Of a stretch of DNA of 64,000 nt, positions 9,415 to 47,898 are shown in pieces (positions within the stretch are counted from its first letter, which is position 1; each line of letters opens with the position of its first letter). The notes below the pieces were generated by a model. The model was not told the DNA's origin and ran no database searches. It worked only from the letters and a program-made list of their open reading frames with translations. Source of the stretch: Terriglobia bacterium (GTDB lineage Bacteria > Acidobacteriota > Terriglobia > UBA7540); NCBI GenBank assembly GCA_020072925.1, contig JAIQGA010000001.1:1-64000 (forward strand). The letters run 5' to 3'. The position numbers were made by a program, and so were the translations under genes.

Positions 9415-9580
9415 ACAGTTGACAGTCGACAGTTGACAGTCACTGGCGGTCGAAAGTTGAAAGTCAAAAGTCGAAAGGCAATCGGCCATGGGACTTTGGG
9501 GTGGCCGACCTCTATCCTTGAATCAGCTGTTCCAGATTCTCGGCTGCCGACTTTTGACCTTCGACCTTCGACTTTCGACT
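9415..9580. repeat. Text-like repeats in the divergent promoter region
   Basis: Runs of GACAGTTGACAGTCGACAG (9411-9440) and GTCGAAAGTTGAAAGTC (9445-9478), then CTTTTGACCTTCGACCTTCG and CGACTTTCGACTCTG (9551-9584). They sit between the two palindromic operators of the divergent promoters and are the same word family found in other gaps of the window. Confidence 0.65.
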
Positions 9581-9587
9581 CTGCCTG

Positions 9588-9599
9588 TGACCGAAGTCA
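9588..9599. promoter_or_regulatory. TGAC-N4-GTCA palindrome upstream of the DUF542 gene
   Basis: Perfect inverted repeat TGACCGAAGTCA, ending 62 bases before the ATG at 9661. It has the same half-sites, the same central AA and nearly the same distance to its start codon as the site at 9391-9402 on the opposite flank. This symmetry argues for a true operator of a shared regulator. No strong -10 is visible (weak TAACCT near 9623). Confidence 0.55.
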
Positions 9600-9660
9600 T
9601 CGTGCCGGTTCCTACCCTCCATTAACCTCGAACCGTTCGAATTCGAAAGGAGAGAGTTCC

Positions 9661-9867
9661 ATGATTGAACCCACTATGAAGGTAGGAGATATCGCCAGGA
9701 TTTGGCCCGAAACGATGAAAGTCTTTGCGCGCTACGGGCTGGACCTTTGCTGCGGCGGGGTGCATCCGCTGAGTTATGCCGCGCAGAAGCACGGCTTTAA
9801 CCTGGAGAAAATGTTGCAGGAGCTGAACGCCGCCGTCGATGTCCCCAGCGTCGCTCCGCAGAGGTAA
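9661..9867 (+). CDS. Stand-alone DUF542 (ScdA N-terminal) protein
   Basis: 68 residues from the ATG at 9661, with AAAGGAGA 7-9 bases upstream. The frame is open further upstream but that part is repeat sequence. The whole protein is one ScdA_N/DUF542 domain: VGDIARIWPETMKVFARYGLDLCCGG with the diagnostic CCGG. In ScdA/YtfE/RIC proteins this domain precedes a di-iron hemerythrin domain that repairs Fe-S clusters damaged by NO or oxidants. No hemerythrin domain is present here. The next gene carries a second copy fused to a membrane protein, and the upstream palindrome suggests NO-type control. Confidence 0.85.
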   Translation: MIEPTMKVGDIARIWPETMKVFARYGLDLCCGGVHPLSYAAQKHGFNLEKMLQELNAAVDVPSVAPQR

Positions 9868-9924
9868 GGGCGGAGGATGCGCAGCCGGGCAATCGAAGCT
9901 CCGGTGTGCCTTTTGGTTTTGCGT

Positions 9925-10000
9925 TTTTGCTTTTCAACCTTCGACTTTTGACTTTCAACTCTAACTCTTGACTGTCAACTGTCGACTCTTAACTGTTTTC
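9925..10000. repeat. Text-like repeats before the DUF542-NnrS gene
   Basis: CAACCTTCGACTTTTGACTTTC, then CTCTTGACTGTCAACTGTCG type words. They separate the DUF542 gene from the fusion gene by 144 bases in total and belong to the repeat family seen in other gaps. Confidence 0.6.
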
Positions 10001-36896: not shown

Positions 36897-37646
36897 ATGG
36901 TTTCCGAATCGCACGCCAGCTTGCCGTTGCCGGCAGTGGCCATCGGCTTCCGGCCGGAATTTCTGGATTTCCGGCGGGGCATCCGAGTAGGAAATCTCGA
37001 GGACCACGAGCGCATTACGCGCATCCTGAAACTGGCGTTGGAAGCGCGCTACCGGCAGGCCTTCGTCACAGAGCGCTGGGGACGCGGCGTTTTCTGGCAA
37101 TGGATCGGCTACCTGCCCCGCGCCAATCGCGCCGCCAAGCCGCTCTCCTCGCACGTCAGTTTCGGCTGCGCGAAGTTCTTCCTCTCCGTGGATACGGACG
37201 AGCGTGTCTTTAAGTGCGGCTTACAAGTTGAGCGCGGCTACGTGCGCGCCCCACGCGCCTCCGGCCAAGGCCGGCTGCAGTCTGACTGGGACTGGCATCG
37301 GCTGCTGAAGTCGCTCAAGCCCCAGAGCGCTATCGAGCGCGAGCTCAAGCGCCTGGTGCAGCGCGAGGGTTTTCAGATTTGGGCAGGAAGCTATGAAGAC
37401 GAGTCGGAGACTTACACCCAGGAAAATTTCCCCAGCATGCAGCGACTGCGCATAACGCTGCTCGAGGCGCCGGGAAATCACTGGGCGGGTTTTCAGCTCT
37501 ATTATCCCATGACGGAAGAGGAAGTGCGCGGCAGCACGGGCGTCGACTTGGTCGAGTCGATGGTTGCGGTATTCGACGAAGTCACCCCCACCATGAACCG
37601 GTGCATGCAGGTCCGGTTGTCGCGAGAGTCGAAAGTTGAGAGTTGA
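36897..37646 (+). CDS. Hypothetical protein, repeat-derived C-terminus
   Basis: 249 residues from the ATG at 36897 (GGGAGGGG 4-5 bases upstream). Soluble and mixed alpha/beta, with several Trp (FWQWIGYL, SDWDWHRLL, NHWAGFQLYYP). No known family recognised. The last residues, SRESKVES, are encoded by the text-like repeat GAGAGTCGAAAGTTGAGAG, which seems to have replaced or extended the original end. Confidence 0.75.
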   Translation: MVSESHASLPLPAVAIGFRPEFLDFRRGIRVGNLEDHERITRILKLALEARYRQAFVTERWGRGVFWQWIGYLPRANRAAKPLSSHVSFGCAKFFLSVDTDERVFKCGLQVERGYVRAPRASGQGRLQSDWDWHRLLKSLKPQSAIERELKRLVQREGFQIWAGSYEDESETYTQENFPSMQRLRITLLEAPGNHWAGFQLYYPMTEEEVRGSTGVDLVESMVAVFDEVTPTMNRCMQVRLSRESKVES

Positions 37647-37662
37647 GAGTCGAAAGTTGAAA
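37618..37662. repeat. Text-like repeat at the end of a coding frame
   Basis: GAGAGTCGAAAGTTGAGAGT repeated with small changes (GAGAGTCGAAAGTTGAAAGG). It overlaps the last seven codons of the gene ending at 37646. Confidence 0.7.
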
Positions 37663-37736
37663 GGCGCAGGACTTTGCTTCTTAACTAAACCTTTCCACCA
37701 CCGGAAGCCGGTCGTCAATCGAAACCGGGCGACTTT

Positions 37737-42792: not shown

Positions 42793-44568
42793 TCACTGGG
42801 CATTTTCGGGCGCTGAGTCCAAGGACACACCTCGGCCCTCAAAGCTTGCGAGCGCGGCGGATTCGTCCGAAAAGATTTCAAGAACACGATCCAGCTTGGC
42901 GGCTCGAATCTGAGGCAACACGCGGTCGTTGACGCCGCAGAACTTCACTCTACCGCCGGCTTTTTGGGCGGCCATCTGGGCTTTGGCCAACTCGCCCAGT
43001 CCCGCGCTGTCAATATACATCAGCTTGGCCAGATTCACCAGGATCAGAGCGCGGCCAGAGTCCATCTGCGCGTGGATGGTGTTGCGGAAGAGTTCCACGG
43101 GTTCGCCCATAGTCAATCGGCCGCCCACTTCGCAAACCGTGACTGCTCCCACCTCGCGCACGGTGAACGTGGCTCGAGGAGGCGCCACGGCCTTTGACTG
43201 GCTTGCCCAGCCTACCTTAGTGACCTGCTTGCCGCGGGCGATGGCCAGCGACTCGGGCGGCACATCTTCGGTAATCGTCGAGCCGGCGGCGGTGTACGAG
43301 CCTTTCCCGATTCGCACGGGCGCCACCAGCATATTGCCGCTGCCGATGAAAACCTCGTCCTCGACGACGGTGGGATTCTTGGTCTTGCCGTCGTAGTTGC
43401 AGGTCACGGTTCCCGCGCCGATGTTTGTCCGCTCGCCCAGCGTGGCGTCGCCTAGGTAAGTCAGGTGCAGCGCCTTAGTGCCGCGGCCGACGCGAGACTT
43501 CTTCACTTCCACGAAGTTGCCAATGCGCGCGGTGGGCTCGATCACGGCGCCGTCGCGCAGGTGAGCGAAGGGGCCAATCACCACGTCGGACCCGGCCTGA
43601 GAGTTGACGATCAGCGAATGCGTCCGCACCGTCACGCGGTCGCCCAACACGGCATCCTGGAGGGTGGAGTATTGCTGGATCCAGCAGGCGCTCCCCACGC
43701 GCGTCCGTCCGCGCAGGCTTACGCCCGGCTCGAGCACCGTGTCGCGCCCCACCTCCACGTCCTCGTCGAGGTAGGTCACCTCAGGGTCCACGATGGTGAC
43801 TCCCTCGCGCATCAAGGCTTCGGCCTTGCGTAGGCGCAGCAGCTTCTCAATCTGGGCTAGCTCCGCGCGGTCGTTGATGCCCAGAACTTCGTGCGCATCC
43901 GCCACCGGAAACGCCATCACCTTCAGCCGGTGGCGGTTGAAAATATCGACGAGGTCGGTGAGCAAGAATTCTTTTTGTGCGTTTCGGTCGGTGATTTCGT
44001 CGAGGTGGGCGAGCAGCTTTTCCCGGGAAAAACACAGAATGCCTGAGTTGATTTCCCGGATCTTCCGTTGGGCGGGCGTGGCCACTTTTTCTTCCACGAT
44101 GGCGCGCACGCGCCCGCCCCGGGCGCGCACGATGCGGCCATAACCGTGGGGATTGTCCAGGTGCGTCGTCAGGACGGTCAACACGGCCCGCGTCTTCGCG
44201 TGCGTTGCCACCAGCTTCCGCAGGGATTCGGCCGGGTGCAGCGGAGCGTCGCCCACCAGCACCACCACCGTGGGACTGGGGCAGCGCGCGAGTTCCACCC
44301 TGGCAGCCTTCACCGCATGGCCGGTCCCCAACTGCTCCTTCTGCTCGATGAAGGTGAGCCCCGGCCGCGCGAAGGCCTTGCGCACCTCCGCCCCTTCGTG
44401 TCCGATCACCATATACACGCGCTCGGCCTTCGCGCCAAAAGCGGTGCGCAGCAGGTATTCTCCCAGGGGACGACCCGCGAGCTGGTGCAGCATCTTCGAA
44501 TGCTCAGACTTGAACCGGGTGGCTTTGCCCGCCGCCAAAATCACCACCGAAAAACCCTGTTCGGCCAT
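42793..44568 (-). CDS. glmU: GlmU (bifunctional UDP-GlcNAc synthesis enzyme) fused to a STAS domain
   Basis: 591 residues from the ATG at 44568 (GGGAG 6 bases upstream); E. coli GlmU has 456. Residues about 1-230 are the uridylyltransferase (VVILAAGKATRFKSEHSK, LVGDAPLHP, REINSGILCF). About 250-455 is the left-handed beta-helix acetyltransferase (HLTYLGDATLGE, NIGAGTVTCNYDGK with the family's active-site region). It makes UDP-GlcNAc for peptidoglycan and lipopolysaccharide. From about 466 to 575 follows a STAS domain (FTVREVGAVTVCEVGGRLTM, KLMYIDSAGLGELAKAQ with Ser521 at the phosphorylation site, GRVKFCGVNDRVL). There is no stop or plausible internal start at the joint. The fusion suggests partner-switch control of UDP-GlcNAc synthesis (inference). 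Confidence 0.9.
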   Translation of the reverse strand: MAEQGFSVVILAAGKATRFKSEHSKMLHQLAGRPLGEYLLRTAFGAKAERVYMVIGHEGAEVRKAFARPGLTFIEQKEQLGTGHAVKAARVELARCPSPTVVVLVGDAPLHPAESLRKLVATHAKTRAVLTVLTTHLDNPHGYGRIVRARGGRVRAIVEEKVATPAQRKIREINSGILCFSREKLLAHLDEITDRNAQKEFLLTDLVDIFNRHRLKVMAFPVADAHEVLGINDRAELAQIEKLLRLRKAEALMREGVTIVDPEVTYLDEDVEVGRDTVLEPGVSLRGRTRVGSACWIQQYSTLQDAVLGDRVTVRTHSLIVNSQAGSDVVIGPFAHLRDGAVIEPTARIGNFVEVKKSRVGRGTKALHLTYLGDATLGERTNIGAGTVTCNYDGKTKNPTVVEDEVFIGSGNMLVAPVRIGKGSYTAAGSTITEDVPPESLAIARGKQVTKVGWASQSKAVAPPRATFTVREVGAVTVCEVGGRLTMGEPVELFRNTIHAQMDSGRALILVNLAKLMYIDSAGLGELAKAQMAAQKAGGRVKFCGVNDRVLPQIRAAKLDRVLEIFSDESAALASFEGRGVSLDSAPENAQ

Positions 44569-44584
44569 GCCCATCTCCCGGAAA

Positions 44585-44645
44585 ATATCGAAATTCGAAA
44601 CAGGAAATTGGAAACTGGAAACTCGAAAATCGAAACTCGCTACCG
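44585..44645. repeat. Text-like repeat upstream of glmU
   Basis: GAAATTCGAAACAGGAAATT, then GGAAACTGGAAACTCGAAAA and TCGAAACTCG. It is the same word type as at 5640-5690 and lies in the 275-base gap between glmU and the reverse transcriptase gene. No structured RNA typical of retrons was recognised in the remaining gap. Confidence 0.6.
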
Positions 44646-44843
44646 CCAGCGGGGAATTTGGTGGTCTGCCCCTAGGCGTGGGAATCAACCTTTACGGAGG
44701 GGACAGAGCTGCCACCTCCCTCTCAATGATTGCTCCAATACGGCATTGTAAGGTTGAACGCGGCGGAAAAGCAAAACTCAAACTCGTCCGGGGCTTGCGC
44801 TCCCCCGCGCTTTGGTAGTAAAAGGTGGTTCCCAGCGTTCATT

Positions 44844-46397
44844 ATGGAGAGTATGCCTCGATTCCGCCTGGAGCGTCCGCTGCGGTGGCAGGACCTTTAC
44901 CGCGAGGCGGAATTGTACAAGGCCGCCGTGCGTGTGTACACCAAGCCGCTGTTTCAATGGCGCAAGGCCTTATCCACGTCCACGGACGGCAAGACGCTCT
45001 ACGATTTGGCGGGGCACGGACTTCGCAGCTTGGACGCGCTGCACCGCGCGCTCGCGCACGAGCGATTCGCGTTCCGGCCGGCGGTGGCGCTACACTACAA
45101 CTTCAACGGCAAGCATCGGACGCTCTACATTTCGCCGTGGGAAGAGCGCATCGTGGATTTGCTGCTTTACCGCCTGGTGAATCAGAAGTTGCATGGCTGG
45201 TTCTCGCCGAATTCCTACGCCTACCGCGACCGCACGCACGGACTTGACCGCTGCCAGGCGCGCATTGCGCAGGTTTTGCGCGCGGCCGGCGGGCCGATCT
45301 ACCTGGTGAAGCGAGATATTGCCGATTACTTCGCCTCGGTGAACCACGAGATTCTGCTCCACCAACTCGCCGGGCTGGTGGAGCGCGACGACTATCTCTT
45401 CGGGTTGCTCGCCCAGCGCGTGCGCTTCCGCTTCCGGGACGCGAGCGAGGAACATTGCGCCGAGATGGGAATTCCCTTCGGCGCGGCGATTGCCTGCCTG
45501 CTGGCGAACATCTACCTCACGGGTCTCGATCGGCAGATCGAGGAAATTCCTGGCCTCGACTATTTCCGCTATGCCGACGATTTGCTCGTGCTCTCTGCGC
45601 AGCGCGATGTTGCGCTCGCAGCGCGCGTCCGGCTGGAACAGGCGCTGGCGGACCTTCGCCTGCGAATGAAGCCCAGCCACTCCGCGGACCTGGTCGTAAC
45701 GGCCAGCGATTCTGTCTCCACAGCCGTGAGAACCACCTCCGATCAACCCTCTCCCTTGGGGAGAGGGTGTCCCGATCTATCGGGACGGGTGAGGGGTGAC
45801 GTTCCCCCCGACGCCAACCCGCCCAGCGATCCCGAATTCATTCCCACCCACGACTTCCGCCACCTCGGGTTGCTCTTTCGCGCCGGCGGTGGGGTGGCGC
45901 TCTCGCGCGACAAGCGCCGGAAAATTCAGAACCTGTTCCGGTTCGCCTTCCGTCGCGGCCGGCGACGTTGGAGGAAGGTCACAGACCCTGAGGCTCGGGC
46001 GCAAGCGGTGGTGGCCATCGCCCTCGAAACGCTTGAAAAGGGTGTACGCAACGTCGCCATCCTTGACTATTACCTGAAGCATGTGGACGACGAGGCGCAA
46101 CTGCGTCTGCTCGACCGCTGGCTGGCCGAGGAAGTTTTGAGCTTGGTTTTTGGCGGGCACAAGAAAGGTCATTTCCGGCGGATCAGTTTCGCGCAACTGC
46201 GCGCGATGGGTCTGCCATCGCTCGTGCACCGGCGGCGGCTGATCCGCCGGCGGAAAATCGAAAGCCCGTTTTTCATCTGGCAGAAGCAGCAGGCGATCCG
46301 AGCCTTCCGGGGGACGGTTGCCAGGCGGTCGCGCGCCCGAGGCGCCGCGGCCGCTTTCTCTCCGCGCCCAGAAGCAGCAGCCCGCGAATGCCCGTGA
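44844..46397 (+). CDS. Reverse transcriptase (class not assigned)
   Basis: 517 residues from the ATG at 44844; ATG 44853 with GGAG close before it is the alternative. RT motifs are in order: RTLYISPWEERIVDLLLYRL, SPNSYAYRDR, motif A VKRDIADYFASV (Asp158), motif B GIPFGAAIACLLANIYL, catalytic YADD (243-246), and FRHLGLLF near 338-345. A basic C-terminal region (about 370-490) could be the thumb. There is no visible maturase, HNH or protease domain, and no group II intron domain V nearby. Residues about 300-320 come from a palindromic repeat inserted in frame between the catalytic motif and the thumb. A zinc-ribbon and a PIN gene follow on the same strand. It may be a domesticated or defence RT. 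Confidence 0.9.
   Translation: MESMPRFRLERPLRWQDLYREAELYKAAVRVYTKPLFQWRKALSTSTDGKTLYDLAGHGLRSLDALHRALAHERFAFRPAVALHYNFNGKHRTLYISPWEERIVDLLLYRLVNQKLHGWFSPNSYAYRDRTHGLDRCQARIAQVLRAAGGPIYLVKRDIADYFASVNHEILLHQLAGLVERDDYLFGLLAQRVRFRFRDASEEHCAEMGIPFGAAIACLLANIYLTGLDRQIEEIPGLDYFRYADDLLVLSAQRDVALAARVRLEQALADLRLRMKPSHSADLVVTASDSVSTAVRTTSDQPSPLGRGCPDLSGRVRGDVPPDANPPSDPEFIPTHDFRHLGLLFRAGGGVALSRDKRRKIQNLFRFAFRRGRRRWRKVTDPEARAQAVVAIALETLEKGVRNVAILDYYLKHVDDEAQLRLLDRWLAEEVLSLVFGGHKKGHFRRISFAQLRAMGLPSLVHRRRLIRRRKIESPFFIWQKQQAIRAFRGTVARRSRARGAAAAFSPRPEAAARECP
45747..45797. repeat. Double palindrome inserted in frame in the reverse transcriptase gene
   Basis: CCCTCTCCC-TTG-GGGAGAGGG, then TCCCGAT-CT-ATCGGGA, then CGGGTGAGGGG. 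It encodes residues about 302-318 (PSPLGRGCPDLSGRVRG) in a loop-like region. The frame is not broken. Confidence 0.85.
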
Positions 46398-46432
46398 GAG
46401 AGGGCGGCTGCCTGTCGATGGGTGTTATGGAA

Positions 46433-46464
46433 GAACCGTCCGCTAAAGCGGCGGTTCGTTTTCT
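46433..46464 (+). terminator. Terminator after the reverse transcriptase
   Basis: Stem GAACCG-T-CCGC, loop TAAA, GCGG-CGGTTC, then GTTTTCT. It begins 36 bases after the RT stop. It argues that the RT and the downstream zinc-ribbon gene are separate transcripts, or at least partly uncoupled. Confidence 0.7.
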
Positions 46465-46497
46465 CCAACCGTCCCCCGGAGGGCTTGGGAATGCAAG

Positions 46498-46587
46498 GCA
46501 GGTCCAGAGTTGAGAGTTAACGGTTCAGAGTCTTGAGGACGCGCGCCTTTTTCCTTTCGACCTTCGACTTTTTACTTTCGACTGTCT
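46498..46587. repeat. Text-like repeat before the zinc-ribbon gene
   Basis: CCAGAGTTGAGAGTTAACGG, then TTTCGACCTTCGACTTTTTA and CTTTCGACTGTC. Same word family as in other gaps. Confidence 0.65.
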
Positions 46588-46605
46588 TTCCGACGGAGGC
46601 TCACC

Positions 46606-47097
46606 ATGGGATTTCTTGATTCGCTATTCGGCAAAGCGTGCCCGCGCTGCGGCACGAAAGGCGCGAAGGAATCCGGCGGCCGGATCCTTTGCCCCAACCC
46701 CACGTGCGCGTACTATGACGCGAGCCGTGGCGGCGGAACCAGCGCCGCCAGGTTCGCCTCGCCCTCTTCTGGCGGCGGCTTTACCTCCGCCAGCGGCCTG
46801 GCAATTCGTTACCAGACGGCCTCTGGTGAGGAGAAGACCTTCGATGCTGATGCCTCCTCAGGGGTGTGGCACAAGAATCACCTCAGCGTGAAGGTCGCCC
46901 CCAGGGGCGTGCACCTGACTCTCTCCCGTGACCGGATCCTGAATCTGAGTGAAATCGAGAGCGCCTTTCCGGCGCGCGTCGCCCCCGAACAGGAAAGGCC
47001 CTCGCGGGTCGAGCGCCAGATCCTCAACTTCCATAAGAAGCGCGGCTCGACCTCGCCGCGCTACGAAGCCCTGCGCGCCAAGTACCCCGACTGGTAG
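46606..47097 (+). CDS. Zinc-ribbon protein of unknown function
   Basis: 163 residues; GGAGG lies 7 bases before the ATG. An N-terminal zinc ribbon (CPRCGTKG, then CPNPTCAYYD) is followed by a Gly/Ser linker and a small beta domain (GLAIRYQTASGEEKTFDADA, SVKVAPRGVHLTLSRDRILN) that may bind nucleic acid or a ligand. The C-terminus is basic. It is 12 bases ahead of a PIN-domain gene, so the two are probably one transcript. Confidence 0.75.
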   Translation: MGFLDSLFGKACPRCGTKGAKESGGRILCPNPTCAYYDASRGGGTSAARFASPSSGGGFTSASGLAIRYQTASGEEKTFDADASSGVWHKNHLSVKVAPRGVHLTLSRDRILNLSEIESAFPARVAPEQERPSRVERQILNFHKKRGSTSPRYEALRAKYPDW

Positions 47098-47109
47098 AGG
47101 CGGACTCAT

Positions 47110-47898
47110 TTGTACGATCTCGAAGATAAGCTCGCGAAGAAGTACAAGGGGGTCCTTCCCGGCTTTTCCCCGGAGTTCCTCGATTGTATTCATGAACTCA
47201 ATGCGGTGCGGCGAGCCCAGCGCGAACTTCAACCCTTTACACGCAACTTCCAGCCTCTGGGCAAGAAGCAGGAAGAAGAACGCCTCTACTACATCCTCGA
47301 TGCCAGCGCGATCCTGCACTTATATGTAATCGACGAGGACCTGACTCCCAAACTCGACCATTTCGTAGAACAGAAGGGTCTGGGCCGGGCGTTCCTCTTC
47401 GTTCCCAATTTCTGTGTGGCGGAAACCTTCAACACCTTTGCGAAATTCTATTATCGGTGGAAATCCCTGACGCCCGAGCAGTACTCACGCTGCACCGAAG
47501 CCTTCAAGCATGATATTCACAACGGCCACCTGCTGTATCACTACGAGCTGAACCGCTACCACGTGCTCAACGTGGATTACATCATTCCTTTCGAGCACCT
47601 GTTTGAGCCCAAGAGGCCGAAAGGCGTGAAGAAGGGCGAGGAATGGACGCTGAGCACGTTCGATATCCTCATCATCGCGCTGGGGATGGAACTGGCGCGG
47701 ATCACCGGAGGCCGGACCTACATCGTCACCTGTGACCGGCGCCTGCACAAAATCACTCAAGTCCTGCTCGGCCTCTCGACGCAACAGCGCGCCCAACAGG
47801 GAATTCCCGGCTTCGCCCAGTTCCCCCATTCCGTGTTTCTGCGTGAAAAGAAGCTCGTTGAGTTGCCTTACGTCGAAGGACAGAAGGTGGATGTGTGA
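47110..47898 (+). CDS. PIN-domain nuclease
   Basis: 262 residues from a TTG at 47110 (GAGGCGG 7 bases upstream). The four acidic residues of PIN nucleases are visible: YYILDASAILHLYV (Asp), FCVAETFNTF (Glu), STFDILIIALGMEL (Asp) and YIVTCDRRLHK (Asp). An N-terminal helical region of about 60 residues precedes the domain. PIN proteins cut RNA, often as VapC toxins or in RNA processing, but this one is twice VapC length. It is coupled to the zinc-ribbon gene and lies downstream of the reverse transcriptase. No VapB-like antitoxin is seen. Confidence 0.85.
   Translation: MYDLEDKLAKKYKGVLPGFSPEFLDCIHELNAVRRAQRELQPFTRNFQPLGKKQEEERLYYILDASAILHLYVIDEDLTPKLDHFVEQKGLGRAFLFVPNFCVAETFNTFAKFYYRWKSLTPEQYSRCTEAFKHDIHNGHLLYHYELNRYHVLNVDYIIPFEHLFEPKRPKGVKKGEEWTLSTFDILIIALGMELARITGGRTYIVTCDRRLHKITQVLLGLSTQQRAQQGIPGFAQFPHSVFLREKKLVELPYVEGQKVDV

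Follow-up and report, generated by a model that had tools for sequence, protein, structure and literature searches.

Bacterial reverse transcriptases (RTs) that have an RNA of their own make unexpected DNA products, among them poly-dA, tandem repeats and new genes. In retrons, whose RTs carry the motifs NAxxH and VTG, this RNA (msr-msd) has a1/a2 inverted repeats and a branching G, while the noncoding RNA (ncRNA) of DRT9 lies upstream of its RT and the guide RNA of TnpB is read from around the 3′ end of its own gene. In the portions of the published accounts drawn on here, a conserved uridine tract in the DRT9 ncRNA is the template for poly-dA (PMC12483538), DRT10 combines an RT, an ncRNA and a partner protein, with ncRNA and partner both needed for defence (PMC12632851), and conserved RNAs occur that have IS607 TnpBs upstream of them (PMC11061315). 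Here we analyse a locus in a 64,000-nucleotide stretch (the window; contig JAIQGA010000001.1, positions 1 to 64,000) of the 6.5-Mb genome of a Terriglobia soil bacterium of the Acidobacteriota (GCA_020072925.1), where an RT gene, a structured RNA straddling the RT stop codon and a gene for a zinc-ribbon protein form a cassette. We propose, with moderate confidence, that the three parts make up an RT–ncRNA–zinc-ribbon system in which the RT uses the nested RNA as both scaffold and template for a dedicated cDNA.

Results

A conserved three-part cassette

The cassette consists of the following features (window coordinates, strand).

44844..46397, +: reverse transcriptase gene, 517 aa, with an RVT_1 core, catalytic YADD, thumb and about 130 aa of extra C-terminal helices
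46301..46485, +: structured RNA, 185 nt, defined by folding and covariation, of which the first 97 nt also belong to the RT coding sequence
46606..47097, +: zinc-ribbon protein gene, 163 aa, with a C4 ribbon (C12, C15, C29, C34), a linker, an SH3/Sm/WYL-like beta barrel and two C-terminal helices

Members of the RT family were found in 12 genomes (the window's, G002, G031, G034, G036, G038, G601, G691, G734, G736, G207 and L015), the relatives, mostly draft genomes, belonging to Terriglobia and other Acidobacteriota. Wherever sequence continues past the RT, the RNA lies 3′ of it (11 of 11 genomes, the G036 copy being split between two contig ends) and the zinc-ribbon gene is present as well: complete and on the same contig in six (the window, G038, G736, G734, G207 and G601), cut by a contig end in three (G031, L015 and G691) and found at the beginning of a second contig in two (G002 and G036). 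By eye, the G002 RT contig ends in an apparent inserted transposase gene. The G034 member (L138 4270-4985; L017) is an RT piece at a contig end with a frame break near residue 90, probably a pseudogene or an assembly error, and was counted neither for nor against linkage.

The association also holds when each part is sought separately, in samples that overlap and whose counts are not additive. The RT family occurs in 10 of 399 genomes of the class, with three further distant matches, and in 2 of 396 of the phylum, with one; the RNA model alone, under strict filters, matches two of those 396, the same two that carry the RT family. All carriers of the zinc-ribbon gene, 5 of 151 relatives and 2 of 116 class genomes, also carry the RT. 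For these two genes the grouping made in the first-pass annotation stands, because the pair is conserved and the RT lies outside the group II RTs sampled in the tree below.

A structured RNA nested in the RT gene

In an alignment of seven loci, about 100 bases around the RT stop codon are much more conserved than the DNA beyond. The motif GGGGGACGGTTG in the last RT codons and CAACCGTCCCCC about 155 bases on are part of a 20-bp closing stem around three arms, laid out as follows.

46301..46320, +: closing stem, 5′ arm (20 bp), within the RT gene, coding for AFRGTVA
46323..46356, +: arm A, a G+C-rich hairpin of variable length
46357..46362, +: conserved UCUCUC tract, which might pair with the GAGAGA loop at 46396-46401
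46361..46431, +: arm B, a long interrupted stem whose apical GUGAGAGA loop contains the RT stop codon
46433..46457, +: arm C, a hairpin with a UAAA loop
46458..46465, +: U-rich unpaired linker, candidate template, with CGUUU invariant in 10 of 10 sequences
46466..46485, +: closing stem, 3′ arm

The folding energy of this RNA (z = -7.5) was matched by none of 200 shuffles. Across ten sequences, 95.3% of 614 cells are paired, double changes occur at 34 of 63 pairs, and on each of five measures the alignment outdoes all 500 shuffles. The alignment behind these figures was fitted to the RNA model and leans toward structure; a slide of 1-3 columns lowers pairing to 35-53%. RNAalifold, run on a free MAFFT alignment, returned 57 pairs, 27 of them with double changes. 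A model made from seven copies recovered three unseen full copies (168, 163 and 89 bits), each where expected, together with both halves of the copy split over two contig ends, again at the expected positions. We regard this comparative evidence for a structured RNA as strong, and the function suggested for it below is proposed from comparison. A pseudoknot between the UCUCUC tract and the GAGAGA loop is possible: all 60 of 60 cells are paired in the ten sequences, but with one double change and 57 of 500 shuffles as good the statistics are not decisive, and helix 3 of the alifold structure (3 pairs) competes with it. Searches of Rfam gave no family for the RNA, only weak matches to the unrelated GlsR13 and P17 (E 1.9 and 2.1), which we dismiss as chance.

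The first-pass annotation had recognised no retron-like stem-loop pair here, and it overlooked an RNA closed by a 20-bp inverted repeat. The terminator-like hairpin that it noted after the RT is real (46433-46457) and is arm C of the 185-nt RNA; instead of weakening the view of a single operon, as had been supposed, it belongs to a conserved RNA by which the RT and zinc-ribbon genes are linked.

The DNA of the overlap serves both RNA and gene. The RT of lineages L013, L015 and L018 ends sooner, leaving an overlap of 31 nt, and the RNA bases beyond the stop are conserved while untranslated. Codon diversity at conserved residues is 0.21 for the 8 codons within the RNA versus 0.54 for the 267 outside (Mann-Whitney p 0.0007, on few codons), and several codons in the overlap are fixed: GGG in 10 of 10, ACG in 11 of 11, GCC in 9 of 9 and AGG in 9 of 9. 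Synonymous sites in the overlap are nearly frozen.

The RNA could instead be a cis-acting attenuator or processing site in one operon mRNA, setting the dose of zinc-ribbon protein, perhaps through binding by the RT or the zinc-ribbon protein, and holding no template. Its place between both genes, 20-120 nt ahead of the zinc-ribbon start, would suit such an element, and arm C with the UUUU behind it looks like a weak intrinsic terminator, yet sites of this kind are as frequent as in shuffles (4 found versus 4.2 expected). We consider this reading unlikely. Because the closing stem's 3′ arm, which covaries with its 5′ partner, is encoded past the U run, transcription must extend through the whole RNA; unpaired stretches of the RNA are conserved in their letters too; and the RT family always comes with the RNA where the contig continues (11 of 11).

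A separate lineage of reverse transcriptases

RVT_1 is the sole Pfam match of the RT (E 3.8e-18), which therefore has neither a maturase nor an endonuclease domain, as had been noted from its open reading frame (ORF). The catalytic YADD (residues 243-246) is intact in 11 of 11 family members, relatives are 64-75% identical to the window protein, and ratios of nonsynonymous to synonymous substitution (dN/dS) of 0.11-0.20 in three pairs indicate purifying selection. Among the 45 RT cores of a maximum-likelihood tree, the family members form a single clade (100/100) on a long stem, apart from AbiP2, the retrons, all 15 group II rows and three of four RT-Cas1 rows. The first-pass annotation had proposed such a tree as a check; here the RT branches apart from every one of the 15 group II RTs included. 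The family joins the diversity-generating retroelement (DGR) RTs, UG17/DRT9, one RT-Cas1 and one unlabelled RT with modest support (85/92), in a tree whose bootstrap values are not fully settled and in which the UG17 and DRT9 rows are long branches that make the joining unsure. DGR RTs form their own 100/99 clade and the three retron RTs included a separate 100/100 clade; the tree has no G2L4 row. Near the family, on a long branch, stands a further RT (L043 1102-2430, G078) with the motif FRYADDILIV and 175 bits against TIGR04416 (cut-off 300), which could be a distant relative.

Profile scores agree in setting the RT apart. Against family models it reaches 100 bits for TIGR04416 (cut-off 300), 45 for Drt2 (390), 56 for Drt3a (200) and 42.7 for retron_St85 (235), and against PADLOC models 116 for UG26, 78 for Drt9 (residues 87-287) and 76 for UG17, while members of named families score 370-741 bits on their own models. 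Among the controls, a true UG17 (L033) scores 525 bits and AbiP2 proteins 513 and 612, and the group II controls reach 370-436 bits on TIGR04416 (L057, L099 and L101) or 240 when matched in two pieces (L085). The UG17 control (L033 1478-2848; DRT10) is encoded on a viral contig. UG26 was the best PADLOC class (E 3e-34), an identity we dropped because group II and CRISPR-type RTs score alike (111-137 bits). No named DRT or UG class profile gave the RT a full-length, member-like score. It is likewise below the cut-off of the retron model and outside the retron clade; the retron motifs NAxxH and VTG are absent from 11 of 11 family members, as they are from two of three retron controls. Pfam finds no Cas1 part in the RT, whose PADLOC Cas1_IIIb match covers only the RT portion of that fusion profile, and there is no cas gene among the 18 flanking proteins scanned, to which the CRISPR search was limited. 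By sequence comparison, then, the RT is a separate lineage outside the group II intron, retron and DGR RTs.

The AlphaFold2 model of the RT, built from six sequences (as for each protein, one model), has a predicted local distance difference test (pLDDT) score of 73 and a predicted template modelling (pTM) score of 0.69, and in Foldseek and VIA-align searches it is matched over most of its length by DRT9, group II, G2L4 and DGR RTs. The top Foldseek matches are DRT9 RT complexes, over about 490-530 alignment columns. VIA-align, within the RT families that it lists, gives Z 26.1 for a DGR RT, 25.8 for GsI-IIC, 23.9 for DRT9, 23.7 for G2L4 and 21.8 for R2 proteins.

Kinship with GsI-IIC and G2L4 would make the protein a group II-like RT, a reading to which its fold (Z 25.8 and 23.7) and its chromosomal sites amid ordinary genes lend something. 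We think it improbable: no maturase (X) domain is found by Pfam, the TIGR04416 score of 100 bits is far from its cut-off of 300 and from most controls, the RT branches outside the group II rows, and no intron was recognised, with no Rfam match at the gathering threshold in the 64 kb, introns included, no ribozyme domains around the RT ORF and no sequence upstream of the RT conserved across lineages.

One part of the protein is variable.

45708..45812, +: in-frame RT insert, about residues 289-323 (about 35 aa), a variable loop holding a palindromic sequence

The insert has no counterpart in the other aligned relatives, except for a different one at the same place in L013, and is not confidently modelled (pLDDT under 50). 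Its palindrome (window 45739-45800; CCCTCTCCCTTGGGGAGAGGG...TCCCGATCTATCGGGA) is in frame and translated as an extra loop. A similar palindromic sequence precedes the zinc-ribbon gene of G002 (L051, about 195-245), and the palindrome therefore seems to be an interspersed repeat.

Chromosomal sites of the cassette

Within genus g3 the loci share their gene neighbours. Among the window, L013, L015, L018, G734, G691 and G601 the neighbours differ, the one exception being a protein that L015 and G734 have in common at 28% identity. Since the neighbours differ between lineages, the three parts appear to have been kept together at about eight chromosomal sites. It is because they stay together at different sites that the RT, RNA and zinc ribbon look like a new RNA-copying machine, belonging to a type mostly known from defence against viruses. 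A clean empty site was not found: the upstream neighbour was located in 9 of 13 genomes, but contigs end there or, in G037, the downstream neighbours lie beyond the stretch read. The gap from RNA to zinc-ribbon gene is 120 nt in the window versus 20-72 in six others. Part of this longer gap is accounted for by a repeat of the TCGACCTTCGACTTTTTACTTTCGAC type at window 46545-46590; the same type recurs near 9450-9960 and 37620-37670 and has many copies in the genome.

A whole cassette that moves, its RT copying its own mRNA from the 3′ RNA structure in the manner of R2, would suit the 3′-terminal position of the RNA in the RT gene, the eight or so chromosomal sites and the R2 fold matches (Z 21.8). 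Such a mobile retroelement nonetheless strikes us as quite unlikely, as each carrier genome found has a single copy, the RT has no endonuclease domain, the zinc-ribbon gene past the RNA travels along, and genus g3 retains the cassette in place. A DGR with its target elsewhere is highly improbable. In its favour, the best VIA-align score goes to a DGR RT (Z 26.1), and the family's loosely joined neighbours in the tree include DGR rows (85/92). Against it, DGR RTs form a separate 100/99 clade and, in agreement with the first-pass annotation, no template/variable repeat pair was found either in the RNA region and flanks of eight loci or in the window's genome, where only short intergenic repeats outside the RNA turned up; a strongly diverged target would escape these searches.

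Zinc-ribbon protein

The four cysteines of the zinc-ribbon protein are invariant, and its gene is under purifying selection (dN/dS 0.12-0.23, two pairs). The protein has no Pfam family; the top Pfam hint is the DNA ligase C4 zinc finger, seen in four of seven members (best E 4.6e-4). In its model (pLDDT 73, pTM 0.41) the barrel gives weak matches to lipoprotein, SH3, Sm/Hfq, Sac7d and WYL types, several of which are nucleic-acid binders.

PIN gene and flanking genes

Downstream of the cassette, the window has one more gene on the same strand.

47110..47898, +: PIN-like protein gene, 12 bases past the zinc-ribbon gene, adjoining the cassette in this genome only

The order of zinc-ribbon and PIN genes, 12 bases apart, was correctly described in the first-pass annotation, although the PIN call is weak for the window protein (PF01850, 13.8 bits; cut-off 23.6) and passes for a homologue (27.9 bits). 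Its broader suggestion that RT, zinc ribbon and PIN form one locus holds for the first two (11 of 11) and fails for the third: the PIN gene turned up in 3 of 151 related genomes, of which one is the window's and the other two have no zinc-ribbon gene or RT of this family, and no other locus examined has it next to the cassette, so we do not count it as part of the system. Upstream, window 42793-44688 encodes a GlmU-like nucleotidyltransferase/hexapeptide protein with a C-terminal STAS domain (Pfam).

Discussion

Comparison of the loci establishes three conserved parts, the fold of the RNA, its overlap with the RT gene and selection on both proteins. From these we outline how the three-part system could work. 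The RT's own transcript would supply the structured RNA, cut or read from its 3′ end, and the RT would bind this RNA through the long closing stem and the arms, as the RTs of DRT2, DRT9 and DRT10 bind theirs. By the same analogy, the RT may copy a short unpaired stretch of the RNA into a particular DNA product. The likeliest template is the U-rich stretch linking arm C to the closing stem, with CGUUU as first candidate. The zinc-ribbon/beta-barrel protein would bind the complex or its DNA, acting perhaps as partner, perhaps as effector.

Phage defence is a plausible role for this system, and the most likely one, since defence is the function of most characterised bacterial systems built in this way (retrons and DRTs); the guess of defence in the first-pass annotation was a fair one by analogy. 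More tentatively, the locus might represent an undescribed class of RT–RNA system, immune or for genome maintenance, in which the RT coding sequence carries the template and scaffold RNA at its 3′ end, so that the enzyme, the RNA and a zinc-ribbon partner that binds nucleic acid all come from a single transcript, and the U-rich linker gives a homopolymer or tandem-repeat product, as in DRT9, DRT10 and telomerase.

Several points weigh against the proposed system and its role in defence. The case is comparative throughout, and the choice of template is a guess. Fold matches of the zinc-ribbon protein are weak, with no Foldseek E below 0.001 and a best Z of 5.1. Most of the neighbouring genes inspected are of ordinary chromosomal kinds, the window copy lying between glmU- and cofD-like genes, and in a PADLOC scan of 10 flanking proteins eight had no match and two, a CHASE2 cyclase and a serine/threonine kinase, matched through common domains. 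Genus g3 has inherited the cassette at a fixed site, a pattern that would also fit a housekeeping function. The RT family was found only in Acidobacteriota, and viral contigs, phage and plasmid records gave distant RTs or nothing. The contig collection was searched once with patterns from close relatives, and further relatives may therefore exist in other phyla.

New here are the separate RT lineage, an RNA absent from Rfam, the RNA-in-gene layout and a partner outside any Pfam family. A mostly shallow search of the literature on RTs with RNA, zinc ribbons, UG classes, Acidobacteria and TnpB found no description of the RT family; the main text of two RT surveys (PMC8934634 and PMC4244168) contains neither ‘zinc’ nor ‘acidobacteri’, and the portions cited of the DRT descriptions (PMC12483538 and PMC12632851) do not mention the RNA-in-gene layout. 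Standing close to the DGR and DRT rows, which are themselves loosely joined in the tree, the RT is relevant to the origin of RNA-templated defence RTs, and the cassette is compact and amenable to direct tests.

Set against known systems, the locus combines features that are otherwise found apart. Like G2L4 and other group II-like RTs, its RT has a group II fold with no surrounding intron RNA, but it carries YADD where G2L4 has YIDD in the portion of the survey drawn on (PMC4244168), has no maturase match, forms a clade separate from the group II rows (the tree holding no G2L4 row) and comes with a conserved RNA and a partner gene. With TnpB and its reRNA/omegaRNA it shares an RNA from around the 3′ end of its own protein gene, although the locus has an RT and no nuclease. 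Retrons likewise unite an RT, a dedicated RNA closed by a long inverted repeat and an accessory protein; here, however, the RT lies outside the retron clade (42.7 bits versus 235), the RNA comes after the RT rather than before it, and an msd is not among the features seen. DRT10/UG17 (ncRNA, SLATT and RT), as partly drawn on here (PMC12632851), resembles the locus in having three parts and an ncRNA with a large central stem bearing smaller stem-loops, and differs in its RT (76 bits here versus 525 for a true UG17) and in its partner, which is SLATT and not a zinc ribbon. DRT9 (PDB 9nlv, 9vma and 9ioa) gives a near full-length match to the RT fold (Foldseek E 1.7e-16; 393-396 residues in VIA-align) and has a dedicated structured RNA with a U-rich unpaired tract, from which it makes poly-dA, but the window RT reaches only 78 bits on the PADLOC Drt9 model, shares 14-17% identity in the aligned fold, has an RNA that overlaps the 3′ end of its gene and is accompanied by a zinc-ribbon partner. 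What the locus has in common with DRT2, DRT9 and DRT10 alike is a dedicated ncRNA, present and covarying at 11 of 11 loci and here nested in the RT gene itself.

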